From contig JANJTP010000016.1 in NCBI GenBank assembly GCA_024711025.1, forward strand, positions 1-64,000: a stretch of 64,000 nucleotides of DNA. The letters run 5' to 3'. The notes beneath the pieces were generated by a model. The model ran no database searches. It was not told the DNA's origin and saw only the letters and a program-made list of their open reading frames with translations. Below are positions 2,703-19,817 of the stretch, one piece after another. Position numbers and translations under genes: made by a program. Origin of the DNA: Solirubrobacteraceae bacterium. GTDB taxonomy: Bacteria > Actinomycetota > Thermoleophilia > Solirubrobacterales > Solirubrobacteraceae. How positions within the stretch are numbered: the stretch's first letter is position 1; the number at the start of each line of letters is the position of its first letter.

Positions 2703-2899
2703 TTGCCCACCCCCAGCAGCTTCTTGATGCGCGGCGCATCGTGATCGGAGATCACGGCCGGCCGGGAGAACGCGCGCTTGCGCTTCGGCGACTTCTTCTC
2801 GAGGATGTGGCTCGAGAAGGCGTGGCGACCGCGGACCTTGCCGGTCGCGGTGACCTTGAAGCGTTTCTTGGCACCGGAATGAGACTTCATCTTCGGCAT
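2699..2899 (-). CDS. rpmI: 50S ribosomal protein L35
   Basis: Small basic large-subunit protein, 66 residues, typical length. It starts [20 protein letters not shown] and ends with the [15 protein letters not shown] tail. The start is the ATG at 2897-2899; a longer open frame upstream only runs through the infC repeat in another frame. It overlaps rplT by 4 bases and sits 28 bp after infC. Confidence 0.96.
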
Positions 2900-2927
2900 G
2901 AGCAGCGGCTGAGTATAGGGACTCGGC

Positions 2928-3833
2928 TCAGCCGGTCGGCTGCTGCTCGTCCGCGGGGGCCGCGAGCTCGGACTCGCCGGCCTGCTCGCCCGCAGGAGCC
3001 GCGAGCTCGGACTCGCCGGCCTGCTCGCCCGCAGGAGCCGCGAGCTCGGACTCGCCGGCCTGCTCGCCCGCAGGAGCCGCAAGCTCGGACTCGCCGGCCT
3101 GCTCGCCCGCAGGAGCCGCAAGCTCGGACTCGCCGGCCTGCTCGTCCGCAGGAGCCGCGACCTGCGTGCCGTCCGCCGGCTGAACGATCGCGGCGTCGGC
3201 TGCCTGCGTGCCGCCTTCCGGCGCCACCGCGAGGTCGGATGCCTCTGCGCCGTCCTCCGGCTGCTTGCCGACCTCGCCGGCGAGCACGGCCTTCGACGGA
3301 CCGAGGACCATCGTCATGTTGCGCCCCTCGAGGTTCGGGCGCTGCTCGATGACGGCGAGCTCCTCGAGCTCGCCCGCAAGGCGGTCGAGGATCATCTGCC
3401 CGCGCTCGGGGTGCGTCGTCTCGCGACCGCGGAACATGATCGTGACCTTGACCTTGTCCTTGGCTCGCAGAAAGCGCTGGACGTGGCCCTTCTTGGTCGC
3501 GTAGTCGTGCTCGGCGATCTTCGGGCGGAACTTGATCTCGCGGATCGTGATCTTCTGCTGGTGCTTGCGCGCAGCCTTCTGCTTCTGCGCCTGCTCGTAC
3601 TTGTACTTCGAGTAGTCGAGGATCCGGCAGACGGGAGGCCGCGCGTCGGGTGCGACCTCGACGAGGTCGAGATCGCGCTGCTGAGCGAGGCGCATGGCCT
3701 CGTCCGTGCGCATGATCCCGATCTGGGCGCCGTCGTCACCGATCACCCGGACCTCTGGAACGCGGATGCGCTCGTTGATCCTGGTGAGGTCCCGCTCGGG
3801 CGGGCGCCGGTCGAATCTACGGGGGACCGGCAC
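2928..3833 (-). CDS. infC: Translation initiation factor IF-3 with a long repeat-containing C-terminal tail
   Basis: IF3 binds the 30S subunit, prevents premature joining of 50S and helps select the start codon. Residues 1-~185 are a normal IF3: the N domain ([18 protein letters not shown]), the linker rich in Lys/Gln, and the C domain ([27 protein letters not shown]). The 301-residue total is about 120 more than usual. The extra tail is acidic and alanine-rich and holds five 13-residue repeats with the core [12 protein letters not shown]. The start is a GTG at 3831-3833, which gives the normal N terminus. The upstream gap is 50 bp. Confidence 0.95.
2962..3156. repeat. Five in-frame 39-bp tandem repeats in the infC 3' end
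   Basis: Units lie at 2962-3000, 3001-3039, 3040-3078, 3079-3117 and 3118-3156, with a decayed partial copy at 2941-2961. Units differ by only one or two bases (for example gcgagctcgg or gcaagctcgg at the start; gctcgccc or gctcgtcc inside). Each codes for 13 residues, so copy number can change without breaking the IF3 frame. Confidence 0.97.
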
Positions 3834-3883
3834 GCTAGATGCGGCGGCGCGTCACAGGGCGCGCGGCTGGGCGTTCATCTCGT

Positions 3884-4249
3884 TCAACGCGAGGCAGTAT
3901 AACCGCCCCCGAGAAGTGCCGCACGGAGGAAGCGATCGGCACAGCCCGCGCGCAGCTCGACGACCGATTTGGCCCTCAGGCAGGTCCGCCGGCCGCGCGG
4001 CGCGACGTCGCGATCGACGCGCAGCGGGCGCCCGGTCTTGTCGAGCCAGACGAGGTCGAGCGCGAAGCGCATCCCGAAGGTGTGAACTGCGCGACAGCCG
4101 CGCAGGTGGAGCGCCCTGTCATCGGGGAGCCACGACAGTCGGGCGAGCCCGCGGCGCCGTGCGCGTGCCCCGAGCGCCTCGTGCACGATCAGCCCGCCGG
4201 GAAGCGCGCGGGCAGGCAGCGGCGTCAGCCGCTTGCGCCAGTCGGTCAT
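3884..4249 (-). CDS. DUF192-family protein
   Basis: Small protein of the DUF192 family, 121 residues. The family core is visible from residue ~50: CRAVHTFGMRFALDLVWLD, then DKTGRPLRVDRDVAP, and the later AKSVVELRAGCAD strand near 93-105. Family members are short beta-rich proteins whose biochemical role is unsettled. Many are secreted, but this one has no evident signal peptide. Its ATG overlaps the thrS stop by 4 bases, so it is translated from the thrS message. Confidence 0.82.
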   Translation of the reverse strand: MTDWRKRLTPLPARALPGGLIVHEALGARARRRGLARLSWLPDDRALHLRGCRAVHTFGMRFALDLVWLDKTGRPLRVDRDVAPRGRRTCLRAKSVVELRAGCADRFLRAALLGGGYTASR

Positions 4250-6183
4250 CGGCCGAGCGGGGCGTCCCGCCGCGTCGCCGTCTCGTGCGCGAGGTGCTCG
4301 ACGAAGCGCTCGACCGCGACCATCCCGAGGTCACCCTCATGCCGGCGGCGCACCGAGACCGCCTGCTCGTCGGCCTCGCGATCGCCGATCACGAGCATGT
4401 ACGGGATCTTCTGCAGCTCGCCCTCGCGGATCCGCCTGCCGATCGACTCGGCGCGATCGTCCGCTTCGACTCGCAGCCCACGCGCGCGAATGGTCGCGGC
4501 GACGTCGCGCGCCGCCTGCGCGTGGCGGTCGCTGATCGGCAGCACCAGCGCCTGGACCGGCGCGAGCCAGACGGGGAGCTCGCCGGCCAGGTGCTCGATC
4601 AGGATCCCGATGAAGCGCTCGAACGACCCCATGCGCGCGGTGTGGATCATCACCGGGCGATGCTCGGCGTTGTCGGCGCCGGTGTACACGAGGTCGAAGC
4701 GCTCGGGCATCGAGTAGTCGAGCTGCACCGTGCCGAGCTGCCACGAGCGGCCAAGCGAGTCGGTCGTGTGCAGGTCGATCTTGGGGCCGTAGAACGCGCC
4801 GTCCCCCTCGTTGACCCGGTAGTCCAGGCCGTCGTCGGCGAGCACCTTCGCCAGCGCCCCCTCGGCGCGATCCCACATCTCGTCGGTGCCGATCCGCTGC
4901 TCCGGCCGCGTCGAGAGCTCGAGCTCGATCTCGAAGCCGAAGATCTCGAACGTCGAGAAGGCGTACTCCAGGCAGCGGCGCACCTCCTGCTCCACCTGCT
5001 CCTCGGCACAGAAGATGTGGGCGTCGTCCTGGACGAAGTGCCGCACGCGCAGCAGGCCGTGAAGCGTGCCGCTGAGCTCGTTGCGGTGCAGCAGCCCCGG
5101 CTCGGCATAGCGGACGGGCAGGTCTCGATAGCTCCAGCGCTGGCTGCGGAACATGTGCGCGTGGCCCGGGCAGTTCATCGGCTTGAGGCCGAACGCGCGC
5201 TCCTCCGTCTCGGTCACGAACATGTTCTCGCGGTACTTGCCCCAGTGGCCCGAGGTCTTCCACAGCTCGCTGTCGTAGAGCAGCGGGGTCTTGACCTCGG
5301 TGAAGCCGCGCTCGGCGCCCATATCGCGTGACAGCGCGACGAGCTCGTTCCACAGCACGGTGCCCTTCGGGAGCCAGAACGCCGATCCGGGAGAGATGTC
5401 CGAGAAGCTGAAGAGGCCGAGCTCGCGGCCCAGCTTGCGATGGTCGCGGGCGCGCGCCTGCTCGAGGCGCTCGAGCTCCTCCTCGAGCTCGCGGGCGGTG
5501 AAGAACGCGGTCCCGTAGATCCGCGTGAGCATCGTGCGGCTCGAGTCGCCGCGCCAGTAGGCGCCGGCCACCGACTGGAGCTTGATCGCTCCGATCCGGT
5601 CGGTCGCCGGAGCGTGCGGCCCGCGGCAGAGGTCGGTGAAGGCGCCGTTGCGGTAGAGGGAGACGGTCTGCACGCCCTGGTCGCGGACGAGATCCTCGAT
5701 CAGCTCGAGCTTGTAGTCCTGGCCCTCGGAGCGGAAGCGCTCGAGCGCCTCCTCGATGCCGACCTCGTCCCGCTGGAACGGCTCAGCGGCCTTGATGTGC
5801 TCCCGCATGCGCTGCTCGATCGCGGGGAAGTCGGCCTCGGTGACCCCGGATCCGTCCGGGAACTCGAAGTCGTAGTAGAAGCCGCCGTCGATCGACGGCC
5901 CGATCGAGATCTTGACCCCCGGGTAGAGCTCGAGAACGGCCGCGGCGAGCACGTGAGCCGCGTCGTGCCGGATCAGGTCGAGCGCATCACGCCCGCTCTT
6001 GCGGGTGACTATCTCCAGCTGCTCGCCGTCGATCAGAGGCAGGCCCAGGTCGCGGACCTGCCCTCCCTGCTTGACCGCGAGCGCCGCGCGCGCAAGCCCC
6101 GGGCCGATCGCCGCGGCGGCGTCGGCGCCGGTCGCACCGTCGGGGAGGTCGAGCACGGTGCCGTCGGGAAGGGTCACGTTCAC
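4246..6183 (-). CDS. thrS: Threonyl-tRNA synthetase
   Basis: Charges tRNA-Thr in the cytoplasm. The 645 residues show a TGS domain (1-~62, starting MNVTLPDGTVLDL), the HxxxH-type editing domain (segment LIRHDAAHVLAAAVLELYPG), the class II catalytic core and a C-terminal anticodon-binding domain (VQALVLPISDRHAQAARDVA). Zinc ligands are present: Cys in GLKPMNCPGHAHMF, His in DDAHIFC and His in PVMIHTARMGSFERFIG. The GTG start at 6181-6183 has a TAGCAT box 8 nt upstream, which suggests a leaderless mRNA. No T-box leader is visible. Confidence 0.97.
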   Translation of the reverse strand: MNVTLPDGTVLDLPDGATGADAAAAIGPGLARAALAVKQGGQVRDLGLPLIDGEQLEIVTRKSGRDALDLIRHDAAHVLAAAVLELYPGVKISIGPSIDGGFYYDFEFPDGSGVTEADFPAIEQRMREHIKAAEPFQRDEVGIEEALERFRSEGQDYKLELIEDLVRDQGVQTVSLYRNGAFTDLCRGPHAPATDRIGAIKLQSVAGAYWRGDSSRTMLTRIYGTAFFTARELEEELERLEQARARDHRKLGRELGLFSFSDISPGSAFWLPKGTVLWNELVALSRDMGAERGFTEVKTPLLYDSELWKTSGHWGKYRENMFVTETEERAFGLKPMNCPGHAHMFRSQRWSYRDLPVRYAEPGLLHRNELSGTLHGLLRVRHFVQDDAHIFCAEEQVEQEVRRCLEYAFSTFEIFGFEIELELSTRPEQRIGTDEMWDRAEGALAKVLADDGLDYRVNEGDGAFYGPKIDLHTTDSLGRSWQLGTVQLDYSMPERFDLVYTGADNAEHRPVMIHTARMGSFERFIGILIEHLAGELPVWLAPVQALVLPISDRHAQAARDVAATIRARGLRVEADDRAESIGRRIREGELQKIPYMLVIGDREADEQAVSVRRRHEGDLGMVAVERFVEHLAHETATRRDAPLGR

Positions 6184-13689: not shown

Positions 13690-14361
13690 TCAAGTACGCA
13701 CGTCACGATCACCTCCCGAGTGCCTGCCGAACGGTCCGAGCAGCGAGCGTGCCCGGGAGAACGCCCACCTCGGCAGGCCGCGGCGAGCCTGCTCGAGGGC
13801 GTCGCGCACGGCGTCCCGAGCATCGTCGCCGTGGACGCCGGGTCCGTGGCCGAGCAGCAGATGGCGGACCGGATAGCGCTCGAGCGCGCGCGGCGGCAGC
13901 AGCCGCATCAGCGGATGGACGCTGACCTGCTCCCCCGGCACGCTGTAGCCCGGCGCGTTGCACAGCGCATCGCCACAGGCGAGCACCGCCTCGCCCGGGA
14001 ACCAGAGCGCAACCTCGTGCCAGCGCGGGATCCGCGCGACGGGCACGACCTCGAACGGCGCGCCGCGAACGCCCTCGAAAGGCTCGGTGTAGAGCTCCAC
14101 CCCGAGCCGACGCGCGACCTGCTCGCAGTCGCGCCCGTGCCGGTCGAGCAGCCGCACGACCCCCACCGGCTCGCCCAGCGCGCGGATCCGCTCGTCGATC
14201 CCCTCCGCGTCCACCGGGTCGAGGATCCACACGCCTCCCCCGGAGAGCACGGCATGCGACGCGCGGCGCATCCAAGCCGGCCGCGGGTCGATCCAGCCGA
14301 GCGTGACCGGCGTATCGTCGCACCAGCGGAGCGCGGTCGCTCCCGCCTCCCCCCCGCTCAT
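13690..14361 (-). CDS. MBL-fold-like metallohydrolase with altered metal motif
   Basis: A 223-residue protein whose layout follows the metallo-beta-lactamase fold: first strands ending SGGGVWILDPVDAEG, a motif region VRLLDRHGRDCEQVARRL, then WFPGEAVLACGDALCNAPGY and HLLLGHGPGVHGDDA. The standard HxHxDH is reduced to DRHGRDC, so a normal two-zinc site is doubtful. Final His residues are present (GHGPGVH). The ATG at 14359-14361 is preferred because the upstream open frame is Arg-rich and overlaps the neighbouring att-like region. The role is unknown. Confidence 0.7.
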   Translation of the reverse strand: MSGGEAGATALRWCDDTPVTLGWIDPRPAWMRRASHAVLSGGGVWILDPVDAEGIDERIRALGEPVGVVRLLDRHGRDCEQVARRLGVELYTEPFEGVRGAPFEVVPVARIPRWHEVALWFPGEAVLACGDALCNAPGYSVPGEQVSVHPLMRLLPPRALERYPVRHLLLGHGPGVHGDDARDAVRDALEQARRGLPRWAFSRARSLLGPFGRHSGGDRDVRT

Positions 14362-14562: not shown

Positions 14563-14593
14563 GAAGGGCCCGCAGAGGCGGACCTTTCAGCAG
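14563..14593 (-). terminator. Relic tRNA terminator-like hairpin beside the left att copy
   Basis: On the minus strand GGTCCGC-CTCT-GCGGGCC is a hairpin followed by CTTCGCG. A related hairpin lies just 3' of the intact tRNA-Val at 19716-19742. The left copy probably is the original tRNA terminator, now cut off from the tRNA gene by the inserted element. Confidence 0.5.
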
Positions 14594-14597
14594 CGAC

Positions 14598-14620
14598 AGT
14601 GGGCGATACTGGGCTCGAAC
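14598..14620 (-). other. att-like direct repeat, left copy (truncated tRNA-Val 3' end)
   Basis: These 23 bp are identical to 19743-19765, the T-arm and acceptor 3' end of tRNA-Val, beginning agtgggcgatactgggctcg on the plus strand. Here the similarity stops abruptly, so no tRNA is formed. An integrase pseudogene lies directly inside. This is the expected attL/attR arrangement of an element inserted at a tRNA 3' end. Confidence 0.75.
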
Positions 14621-14701
14621 GCGCCGACCGAGAGCAGTTCCGCGTAGTTACGCGGCGCTGAGATGCGCTGAGATGCGCACAGGCACGTCCGGTCGGGACA
14701 C

Positions 14702-14726
14702 ATTGGCCCCCGAATTGGCCCCCGAG
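14702..14726. repeat. Paired attggccccc motifs, left end of the element
   Basis: attggcccccga repeated twice in 25 bp, matching the doublet at 19674-19698 near the other end. On the minus strand it reads GANSGAN in the shifted integrase tail. Confidence 0.5.
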
Positions 14727-14787
14727 ATCCCGGGCGCCACCTCGCCCTCGGATCGGCGACCGCGAACGCAGCGCCGATGCGCTGCGC

Positions 14788-15657
14788 CTAGTCGTGCCGC
14801 GGCGCGTAGTGCATGTAGATCTCGGTGGTGACGAGATTCGCGTGCCCCATCAGCGCCTGGATGTCGCCGACCGGCCAGCCCGACCGGGCGAGCGTCGTTC
14901 CGAAGCTGTGCCGCAGGCTTGTGGAACGGCAGCAGCTCCAGGCCGGCAGCATCACGCGCTGCGCCGTAGCGGCGCCTTAGCGACGTGTCGGTCAGGCAGC
15001 CCCCGGTGAACGGGTCGGCGAACACCAGCTCGGAGCATCGCGGCAGCTCGGCGAGCGCCTCACAGACAGCGCGCGAGAGCGGCACCGCCCTGCCCGCCGT
15101 GACTTCGGCGACGACTCGACCCCGCGCGTCACGCCACGCTCAACACGGACAACGCTCTGGACGAGGTCAACGGACGCCCAGCGGAGCGCCCGGAGCTCCC
15201 CGAGGCGCAACCCGGTCTGCGACGCAGTGACGTACAGCGCCCGGTCCACCTGCTGGTACGGGCCTTCGACCGCATGAGCGACGAGATCGGTGACCTCGTG
15301 CGGCTCGAAGAACCGCAAGCCACTCTCCTCGCCCCCGTCGCCGGGGCACGGCACGCGTGCCGCCACGTTCTTCACCGCCCAGCCGCGGTCGACGGCGTAC
15401 AGCAGGAGCGTGGAGAGCAGCGCCAGGTGATTGCGAACCGACTTCGGCAACAGGCCGGCACCCGGCGCCTGCCCGTGGTTGCGAAGACGGTTCGTGAGCA
15501 TGTGTGTCCTCAGGCCGCGCACGTCGTCGGCCGTGATCTTGTCGACCGTGGTGTCACCGAAGTACGGCTCGAACGAGTTCCGGCAGGTACGCCGGTCGTC
15601 GTGCGCGGTCGTGTGCCGCTTGATGTCGGTGTGGTCGGCCAGGTACGCATCGAGCAC
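14788..15657 (-). pseudogene. Phage-type tyrosine integrase, frameshifted and 5'-truncated
   Basis: It once encoded a site-specific recombinase of the phage integrase family. The N-terminal core-binding part (VLDAYLADHTDIKRHTTAHD) and the first catalytic Arg (TASQTGLRLGELRALRW) are in frame up to about 15,095. A frameshift there leads to PLSRAVCEALAELP in another frame. Near 14,919 an extra A breaks FHSLRHSFGT into FHKPAAQL. Corrected, the end reads LRHSFGTTLARSGWPVGDIQ, then LMGHANLVTTEIYMHYAPRHD with the HxxR box, second His and Tyr nucleophile. The arm-binding N terminus is missing where the insertion sequence begins. Confidence 0.85.
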
Positions 15658-15677
15658 CTCGGGTCCGTCCGACGAAG

Positions 15678-17117
15678 TGTGTGTGGTCGTGGTGATCGAT
15701 CACTGAGCTGGCCGTCGCGCCGGCTGGGACGGGAGCCCCCGGAGGGGGCGAGCGGCCCGGCCGGCGCGGCGGGCGGCCGGAAGGAGACCCATCACCATGA
15801 GTTCCATGCTCTGAGCGGCGTCCCAAGGCGGGCGCCGCAACCGATGAGCAGGCGCCCGCAGAGGTCGTCGACCGCCTCGCCGAGCTGCTGCCCGAAGGAG
15901 CCCTGGATGACGCTGTCCAGGGCCTCAGGCCCGAAGAGCTGACCGGTCCGGGCGGCCTGCTGAGCAAGCTGGCCGGCCGCGTCTTGGAGGCGGCGTTGCA
16001 GGCCGAGCTGACCGAGCACCTGGGCCACCCGCCCGGGGCTACCCCTGGCGCCTTGAACGTTCGCAACGGGTCGACGAGCAAGACCGTGTCGACCGATCTC
16101 GGGCCGGTGCAGGTTCGCACCCCTCGTGACCGGGAGGGCTCCTTTGAGCCCCGGATCGTGGCCAAGCGCCAAACCCGCCTGGCGAGCCTAGACGACAAGA
16201 TCCTGGGCCTCTACGCCGGCGGCATGTCGGTCCGCGACATCAGCGCACACCTCTCAGAGCTCTACGACACCCAGATCGGCCGCGACACGATCAGCTCCAT
16301 CACCGACGCCGTCTTGGAGGACGTCGCCGCGTGGCGCTCGCGCCCATTGGATCGGGTCTATCCGATCGTCTACTTCGACGCGATGTTCGTGAAGGTCCGC
16401 GAAGACCGAAGCGTCCGCGCCCGGGCCTGCTACCTGGCGATGGGCGTCTCCTGCGACGGCGACCGCGAGGTCCTCGGGATCTGGTGGCAGGAGACCGAAG
16501 GCTCGAAGTTCTGGCTCTCGGTGCTCAACGACCTGCAGCGCCGCAGCGTGCAGGACGTCCTGATCGCCTGCGTCGACGGCCTCAAGGGCTTCCCCGAGGC
16601 CATCGAAGCGGTCTTCCCACTGGCCTGGGTTCAGACCTGCAATCGTGCACCTCATCCGGTCCTCGTTGCGCTACATCAACTACCGCGACCGCAAAGAAGG
16701 TCGCGTCGGCGCTTCGGCCGATCTACACCGCCGCCAACGCCGACGAGGCGCTGACAGAGCTCTAGCGCTTTGACGACCAGTGGGGCGCGCCCTACCCGAT
16801 GATCCCGACCGCCTGGCGCGAGCACTCGCCGCACGTCACGCCGTTCCTCGCGCTTCCCAGCGGGCTGCGCCGCGCGGTCTACACGACCAACACGATCGAG
16901 GCGCTGCACCGCCAGGTCCGCAAGGCGATCAAGACCCGCGGACACTTCCCCGACGAACAGGCCGCCACCAAGCTCATCTACCTCGCGCTCATCCGCGCCG
17001 AAGCCAAGTGGCAACGCAACCGGGCCTGGACGGCCGCGCGCGCAGGCCTCAAGATCCACTTCGCAGACCGATTCCCCGGCTGACCATCAACAACCAGTCG
17101 CCACGGCCTCACACACA
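15678..17117 (+). mobile_element. Decayed IS256-type insertion sequence
   Basis: Imperfect terminal inverted repeats bound the transposase pseudogene. The left end 15678-15695 reads tgtgtgtggtcgtggtga. The complement of the right end 17099-17117 reads tgtgtgtgaggccgtggcg. The size (~1.44 kb) fits the IS256 family. It cuts the 5' part of the integrase gene. I cannot see a clear target-site duplication, which fits an old insertion. Confidence 0.7.
15797..17083 (+). pseudogene. IS256-family transposase, multiply broken
   Basis: A DDE transposase of the IS256/mutator-like class. It begins at an ATG (15797) with a good ribosome site GGAAGGAG upstream, but reads MSSML then stops. The main frame carries LTGPGGLLSKLAGRV, IVYFDAMFVKVRED (first Asp) and IACVDGLKGFPEAIEAVFP (second Asp). 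After QTC near 16,640 an extra base shifts frame, a second shift lies near 16,710, and an in-frame TAG at 16763-16765 replaces the expected Glu/Arg region. The last part holds NTIEALHRQVRKAIKTRG (catalytic Glu) and ends FADRFPG. It cannot yield an active enzyme. Confidence 0.88.
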
Positions 17118-17243
17118 GAAGAACGGACACCCTCCCGTGTACGTCAGGGCCTCTCCAACCACGGTGTGTGAATCCCGGTGGCGCTGCCGCAATACCTCTG
17201 CAGTGCCCACAAGGCTACCCGAGCGGTCGGCGGTCGACGTGCG

Positions 17244-17615
17244 CTACTCGCAGAGGTCGAGCCCGGCCTGCAACAGCTCGCCGATGTTCAACTTGCCGCC
17301 AGGAATGCCCGGGTCGTCCTTCCAAATCTCGTCGATCTCGGGGAGCCCCGACTGCTTCGCCAAGCCGTTGACGGCATAGACCTTGCCGTCGGCCTCGAAC
17401 GTCACCTTGCCGGTACCACCCGACCCGTCGCAATGCAGCGTCCCAGAGTCGACCGTGAGCGGCCAGTCGCCGCTCAAGTCGCCAGCCGAGATTGTCTGGC
17501 CGCCCTTATCGCTATCACCGGAACTGCCGCCGCTCGACTGGCCCGATGACGTCGATGAGCAGCCGCCCGAAGCGAGAGCGAGGGCGCAAGCGGCGACAAT
17601 GAGACTCCAGTTCAT
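17244..17615 (-). CDS. Small putative lipoprotein, DUF2511-like
   Basis: A 123-residue protein with a signal peptide and lipobox ([19 protein letters not shown]), a Ser/Gly linker (~20-42) and a compact C-terminal domain: [26 protein letters not shown], then [21 protein letters not shown]. This domain resembles DUF2511 (YebY-type) proteins that occur in actinobacteria and phages. Two Cys (near 62 and at 122) could form a disulfide outside the cell. It is the only intact gene inside the relic element. A TAGTGT box sits 8 nt before the ATG. The function is unknown. Confidence 0.7.
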
Positions 17616-17623
17616 GCCGGCGA

Positions 17624-17629
17624 ACACTA
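17624..17629 (-). promoter_or_regulatory. Candidate -10 box for the small lipoprotein gene
   Basis: TAGTGT on the minus strand, 8 nt upstream of the ATG at 17615. It is the same box and spacing as at several host genes. Confidence 0.4.
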
Positions 17630-17733
17630 GACCGCCGGGCAGAAGCCTGCTCAGGCGGCCTCGGCTGCGATGCGTTCCTGCCGGAGCGTCGCCTGGTGAA
17701 TAACGCGGCCGTCGAGCTGCGTCGTGATCGGGG

Positions 17734-19577
17734 TCACGAACTCCATGGGGCACCCCGCATCGCCGGCAACTGCCGGGCCCGCGCGGGCTGCTCATGGTCG
17801 AACACGGTGCTGCCGCCGGGCAGCCTGAGCAGCTCCGGGCCGCGCTCCCCGACAACCGCCCAACCCGTCTTCACGACAGTGCCGCCCGTTGCGAGACCGG
17901 TCCAGCCAAGCCCGGTCTTGATCACGCTCTTGACCGGGCCAGGAACCACGGACATGACCGCGTCCTTGATCTTGCCCGGTGACGCCTTGATGAAGTCGAT
18001 GATGCCCTTCACGATCTTGGTGCCGATCGGCTTTCCGGCCTCCAGCACCTTCGAGCCGACCGACCGGATGCCGGACACGAGCGCGGTCACGGCACGCTTG
18101 CCACCGGACAGCATCCGGCCGGGCAAAGATTCGATCGCGTTCATGACACGGCCGACAAGGTTCAGCGCGGCCCTGGCCACGCGGGCGGGCATGCCGGTGA
18201 ACGTGCCAACGAACCGTTGCGCGCCAACCAACGCCCGGCAAACCATGACCACACCGCACGGATCGCGCCAACGGCGCCACGGAACGCGCCGGTCACCATT
18301 CGGATCGGGAGCGCCAACACCCGGAACACGACACCGAGCCTGGGGGATCAAGCCGAGCAGCTTCAGGATCGGGCCGGAGAACACGACACCAATCACCATC
18401 CCGACCTTCTCGAACGTGCCCTTGAACGGGGCGAGCACCTTCCCGACCGCCCCGAGCCCGGTCGCGATCAGCTTGATGATCGGGATCGCGATCTTGAACG
18501 CGCCGACGATCGACACGATCACGCCCTTACCGATCCCCTTCAGCAGCGGCAGCAGCACGTTCTGCAGGAACGGCATCGCCGGCGCCAAAGCGTCGATGAT
18601 CTGCCGGTCGACCTTGCCGACACCGGCAGCGAGCCGGCCGACCGTGGCCTGGACCTTCTCCACCGTCTCCGGCGTGATCAGCCGCGACAGCGCCTCAGCG
18701 CCCCGACCTGCAAGGTCGTACACCGGCCGCAGAGCTGACCGGAGGCCGCGGCCAGCGCCTCCCGTGTGCGGGCCATGCGGCCCTCTGTCGTCTTCGCCGC
18801 GAGCTTGTCAGCGCCGCCGAAATCCGCGATCAACGCACGCTGGATCGCCGGCAGCGCCTTGGAAGCGGCGATCTGTTTGCCCGGCGCGAACGTCGCCTCG
18901 AAGCTGTCTGGAGGTCATGCCGAGCTGCTTGGCGATCGACCCGCGCCCCACGTTGACCGACTCGGCGAGCTGGTTCATCTCCTCGGCCGACAACTTGCCC
19001 TTCGCCTTGATCTGACCGATCGCGAGCGCCGCCCTGGGCATCACCTCCTGGATCGAACGCCCAGACGCTGCAGAGGCGGCGCCGAGCGCCTTCACCAGCC
19101 GCATCGACTCCTTCGCGCCGACGTTGAACGCCATCAGCAACGACACCGCGTTACCAGTCGTCGCGGGATCGAGAACCGGTGACGCCTTCGCCAGCGCCGC
19201 GATCTCCCGCACCATCTTCCTGGCCTTGCGCTCAGATCCCAGGAACGTCGTGAATGCGACCATCTGCCGATCCTGGGTCTTCAGGTAGTCGGTTCGGCGC
19301 CGGCCTTGGCGAGAACAGCGCCGCCCGTCGCGGCCGCAGCGCTCGCCGCAACACCGACACGACCGACGGCGGCGGCAGCTCCCGACGTCGTCGCCTTCAG
19401 TCGGCCGACGGCCCGCTCCATCCGCCCGGTTGCGACCGCGCCCGTCTGCAGCCCGGTGCCAGAACGGCGCGCGGCACCTCCCAGCCGGTCGAGATCACCG
19501 CTCGCGGCCTTCGCGCCGGCGGAGAACGCCTGGCGACCGAGGAGCCGAAGGTGAACCTGCACATCCGATTGAGACAC
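17734..19577 (-). pseudogene. Phage tail tape-measure protein gene, fragmented
   Basis: Pieces in different frames together resemble one tape-measure protein, which sets tail length in siphophages. The start (VSQSDVQVHLRLLGRQAFSA) is near 19577. The next block (19,263-18,900) has MVAFTTFLGSERKARKMVRE and MRLVKALGAASAASGRSIQE. A frame change near 18,905 leads to FEATFAPGKQIAASKALPA, and further changes near 18,720 and 18,340-18,230 separate the hydrophobic block (GIGKGVIVSIVGAFKIAIPI) from the end, with VKSVIKTGLGWTGLATGG and [17 protein letters not shown]. At least four frame breaks make it a pseudogene. It shows the element was once a prophage. Confidence 0.75.
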
Positions 19578-19673
19578 GGTCTCGACCCCCAAGGCCGACG
19601 TTGATTGCAGACGCAACGATACGACTCGGAGTGGACGGCGTCAGCCCGCGGCTCTGCAGCTCAGTAGCTGCCC

Positions 19674-19698
19674 GAATTGGCCCCCGAAATTGGCCCCC
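19674..19698. repeat. Paired attggccccc motifs, right end of the element
   Basis: Two copies of attggcccccga/a lie head to tail here, 45 bp inside the right att copy. The same doublet occurs at 14702-14726, about 80 bp inside the left copy. They may be integrase arm-type binding sites or shared remnants of an integrase C-terminal coding end. Confidence 0.5.
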
Positions 19699-19742
19699 AG
19701 CGTGCCCTGGAACGCGAAAGCCCGCCGTGGCGGACCTTTCGG

Positions 19743-19765
19743 AGTGGGCGATACTGGGCTCGAAC
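19743..19765 (-). other. att-like direct repeat, right copy (inside intact tRNA-Val)
   Basis: Identical over 23 bp to 14598-14620. Together with the related hairpin sequence on its left, it would rebuild the 3' half of the tRNA and its terminator after integration. Confidence 0.75.
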
Positions 19766-19817
19766 CAGTGACCTCCGCCTTGTCGAGGCGGCGCTCTCCC
19801 AGCTGAGCTAATCGCCC
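19745..19817 (-). tRNA. tRNA-Val (GAC), unusual C33
   Basis: A complete cloverleaf: acceptor GGGCGAT/ATCGCCC, D-arm GCTC/GAGC, anticodon stem CCGCC/GGCGG, 5-nt variable loop, T-arm ACTGG/CCAGT with loop TTCGAGC, discriminator A73; CCA is not encoded. The 7-nt anticodon loop is TCGACAA, so the anticodon is GAC but position 33 is C rather than the near-universal U. Its 3' part is the attachment target of the neighbouring element. Confidence 0.85.

Follow-up and report, generated by a model that had tools for sequence, protein, structure and literature searches.

A probable relic phage element with readable attachment ends at a tRNA-Val(GAC) gene in Solirubrobacteraceae

In this report, I discuss a decayed insertion in a 64,000-nucleotide stretch of DNA (hereafter the window), which very probably descends from a temperate siphophage (or a phage-derived island) that integrated at the 3' end of a tRNA-Val(GAC) gene. 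The element is an ordinary relic prophage of a known sort, with unusually readable ends. The original prediction of a relic integrated element, bounded by an exact 23-bp repeat of the tRNA-Val 3' end, is well supported by the repeats themselves, by the phage genes and by empty sites in relatives. The repeat, AGTGGGCGATACTGGGCTCGAAC, occurs as a distal att core at 14598-14620 (minus strand) and as a tRNA-proximal att core at 19743-19765 (minus strand), the latter forming the 3' end of the intact integration target that ARAGORN places at 19744-19817 on the minus strand; the expectation that any 23 bp of this tRNA would match the window by chance is about 8e-6 (both strands). A tRNA 3'-end repeat is thus found at both ends, with one copy completing an intact tRNA, and the 5.1 kb between them hold a tyrosine integrase gene adjoining one att copy, though this gene is broken, and phage structural genes in the form of a decayed, frameshifted siphophage tape-measure gene only. 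The element has a G+C content of 68%, lower than the 73-75% of its flanks. A second copy was not found in the 3.1-Mb genome, where the element has five other matches, four of them tRNA genes and one, of 62 bp, to part of the tape-measure gene.

The broken integrase expected beside the left att copy lies at 14648-15660 on the minus strand, where it is recognized by PF00589 and phrog_1. What is left of it, the core-binding and catalytic domains, is broken into three or more pieces by at least two frameshifts and one premature stop. The remnant aligns to residues 130-427 of a relative in G182 whose open frame spans 442 aa (one scan of genome contigs with an integrase query returned no relative), and its N-terminal arm-binding domain is missing; because the gene is both broken and truncated in this way, the element has almost certainly lost its self-mobility, and an ability to excise is predicted to be absent. 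The place expected for the missing domain is occupied by a 1.47-kb IS256-family insertion sequence (IS) at 15661-17134 (plus strand; PF00872, NF033543) with terminal inverted repeats and a broken transposase that scores 249 bits for NF033543 versus a cut-off of 150; its ends were set from copies in G025 and G019, to which its DNA is 78-80% identical. A relic element had been offered as the explanation for a stretch of frameshifted frames in this segment; the open frames at 15984-17083 (plus strand) belong to the broken IS256 transposase, which had been overlooked. A target duplication of about 8 bp is typical of a fresh IS256 insertion and is lost after an adjacent deletion. No such duplication of about 8 bp was found at the window IS, where the flanks AGCACCTC and CCGTGTAC differ; the G025 copy (L184 1500-2960, G025:C261), which splits an integrase of the same family as the window's within its N-terminal codons, is flanked on both sides by the 8-bp duplication GGGCAGAC. 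Since the flanks mismatch and the integrase N terminus is absent, the arrangement suggests a deletion adjacent to the IS. Beside the right IS end, TACGTCAGGGC (window 17138-17150) matches the integrase N-terminal codons next to the G025 IS in reversed form, and an inversion of this region is possible.

The pieces of a phage tape-measure gene noticed earlier toward the right end are borne out as a single tail gene of nearly full length, split over several frames at 17734-19616 (minus strand) and matched by PF20155 (TMP_3) together with several PHROG tape-measure families. Its relative in G099 matches at about 52% over roughly 95 aa, and a tape-measure scan of viral contigs found nothing. The element also contains an intact open reading frame, missed before, at 17244-17615 (minus strand; DUF2511, PF10709, phrog_2950), with a lipoprotein-like N terminus and, among 146 family genomes, present in none but G000, the genome of the window; phage records searched with the tape-measure and DUF2511 proteins gave no match. 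The host genes on both sides are open and gene breakage is seen within the element only, and therefore the frameshifts point to local decay rather than general sequencing error. This confinement, the presence of phage genes between the two repeat copies and the agreement in gene order between both flanks and the relatives leave next to no credence for an assembly artefact, or an unrelated segmental duplication of the tRNA end, even in a draft genome of 72 contigs.

A terminator-like sequence next to the tRNA had been described as doubled, and the doubling is real. The copy at 14563-14593 (minus strand), by the distal core, is taken as the original downstream hairpin of the host tRNA-Val, and the copy at 19710-19742 (minus strand), between the putative arm sites discussed below and the tRNA-proximal core, as the one borne by the element; the spacer between hairpin and core is longer on the left. 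Both window copies can be aligned with the hairpins that follow tRNA-Val in G005, G016, G027 and G030; the element therefore brought along a hairpin homologous to that of the host, so that the idea of a replacement terminator is supported in the sense of carriage of a homologous hairpin only. The window copies fold at -15 and -17 kcal/mol (z -1.5 and -2.1), less stably than those of G005 (-27 kcal/mol) and G016 (-24 kcal/mol), and neither passes a strict terminator scan demanding a T run; transcription termination by these hairpins is plausible.

Just inside each core lies a pair of 10-bp direct repeats, ATTGGCCCCC, which the original prediction had not noticed. The P'-side pair (14702-14723, plus strand, 12-bp period) stands 82-103 bp from the left core and overlaps the 3' end of the integrase frame, and the P-side pair (19676-19698, plus strand, 13-bp period) stands 45-67 bp from the right core. 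The pattern ATTGGCCCCC-N2-3-ATTGGCCCCC has only these two occurrences in 3.137 Mb (0 for the control), so that repeat pairs specific to the element are found on both sides of the core, as in a bipartite attP, and, read from sequence, they are probably arm-type sites of the integrase. Joining the ends of the element would accordingly be expected to give an attP composed of a direct-repeat arm pair, the hairpin, the 23-bp core, a second arm pair inside the integrase 3' end and the integrase itself. The left pair can, admittedly, encode GANSGAN in the integrase tail, the string recurs within coding repeats (APELAPELAP) of unrelated genes, as which two arm-repeat matches in other genomes were rejected, and although some relatives' integrases have 11-12-bp tail repeats similar to these pairs (tail repeats occur, for example, in the intact integrase of G122), the tandem-repeat enrichment in their tails is marginal (p ~0.04 without the window and 0.13 at a looser cut). 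That the pairs are repeats of coding or composition and not integrase sites is nonetheless unlikely, considering that the right pair is far from the integrase gene, that the sole two pairs in the genome adjoin the inner sides of both cores and that the layout matches the arm pairs of mycobacteriophages (PMC3203893). The arm repeat is absent from the viral contigs. Taking the pairs as integrase sites, I would also float, as a conceivable but still rather long shot, that tRNA-Val is used by a class of elements whose attP includes a duplicate of the host hairpin along with the tRNA 3' end, and whose P'-arm sites lie in the integrase coding tail, such that sites and C terminus would coevolve.

The same site was compared in related genomes, where the usual order in the genus is abhyd1, other genes, tRNA-Val, tRNA-Cys and tRNA-Gly. 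In G005 and G015, which belong to the same genus, the order is abhyd1, FAD oxidoreductase, tRNA-Val, i.e., the oxidoreductase gene of the left flank is joined directly to tRNA-Val with neither element nor truncated copy, which is the empty site that had been anticipated; since these genomes are without the MBL-like gene at 13690-14361, the neighbour content differs by one gene and the comparison of the junction is not base-for-base. G016, which does have the MBL-like gene, carries an island of its own: a degenerate copy of the tRNA-Val 3' end and hairpin at L090 6190-6245 is probably the scar of that separate island, and the contig bearing it seems to end in the same gene where the tRNA-Val contig begins. 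G026 was dropped as an empty site, having the MBL-like gene beside tRNA-Val on the other side. This gene does not keep the same position with respect to tRNA-Val in G000, G016 and G026, and the neighbourhood therefore seems to have been rearranged repeatedly.

A truncated tRNA copy in relatives that are free of the element would have spoken against integration, as would a conserved gene containing the left 23 bp; no such gene was found, and the copies that do exist in relatives each bound a different insert. In G007, G012 and G014, the neighbour of tRNA-Val is a small zinc-ribbon gene. G009 has that gene too, but between it and tRNA-Val lie 1.3 kb of inserted DNA that encode an MFS transporter and contain another exact copy of the 23 bp. 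G002 carries yet another insert, 1.7 kb long, with a secreted-looking protein and likewise a further copy of the 23 bp. These copies are therefore read as separate integrations and not as ancestral features, and with the scar in G016 and the element in the window they identify tRNA-Val as a recurrent site. Both small inserts, which lie between exact 23-bp copies at L171 (G009:C51) 4681-6075 and L172 (G002:C155) 2751-4552 in window orientation, are without an integrase. Four IMG/VR phage contigs (L144-L147) have a 21-bp core where ARAGORN called no tRNA gene, and on L144 there are GTGCGTCCTCA-type direct repeats beside the core.

That such integrase-free inserts use this site in G009 and G002, and that the tape-measure gene starts a mere 150 bp or so from the att on the tRNA side, an unusual arrangement for a prophage end, could be taken to mean that the window locus is composite, built at a tRNA-Val hotspot by at least two successive small insertions, one bringing an integrase island and another a phage tail fragment. 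I consider this quite unlikely, since the matching arm-repeat pairs at the outer ends tie both ends to one attP and no third core copy lies between them. An intact relative of the whole element was not found in the searches made, and for that reason the common origin of integrase and tail gene is deduced from their co-location. Under the preferred reading of a single phage or phage-derived island, a phage with a tyrosine integrase would have integrated into the tRNA-Val(GAC) 3' end, bringing its own copy of the downstream hairpin, and the tRNA would have stayed intact since the phage core took the place of its 3' end; later, an IS256-family element would have inserted at the integrase, a deletion beside it would have removed the integrase N terminus, possibly along with most phage genes, and what remained would have decayed by frameshifts. 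With different inserts or scars in four genomes, tRNA-Val(GAC) has served more than once as a landing site in a genus that has been little studied, and the readable attP design (core, hairpin and arm pairs) could guide the search for intact phages and integration tools for these bacteria.

Compared with known systems, the element resembles tyrosine-integrase prophages at tRNA 3' ends (lambda/L5 type, phrog_1) in the integrase beside the att, the duplicated tRNA 3' end, the whole tRNA and the tail gene inside, but differs in that its integrase is broken and without the arm-binding domain and nearly all phage genes are lost. The IS shares with the IS256 family its transposase, its terminal inverted repeats and about 80% DNA identity to the integrase-interrupting copy of G025, yet its transposase is broken and it has no target duplication, in contrast to GGGCAGAC on both sides of the G025 copy. 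The closest parallels for the putative arm sites are the attP sites of the mycobacteriophages CrimD, Giles, L5 and Pixie, with pairs of ~11-bp arm-type repeats beside the core; in Giles and L5 these pairs are reported in direct orientation, as in the window, and CrimD has two arm pairs and, similar to the arrangement described here, a stem-loop, putatively a terminator, that separates the core from an arm site (PMC3203893). The window differs from these mycobacteriophage sites in its repeat sequence, in its tRNA-Val core, in having one pair that overlaps the integrase 3' end and in a hairpin whose homologues follow tRNA-Val in the host's own family.
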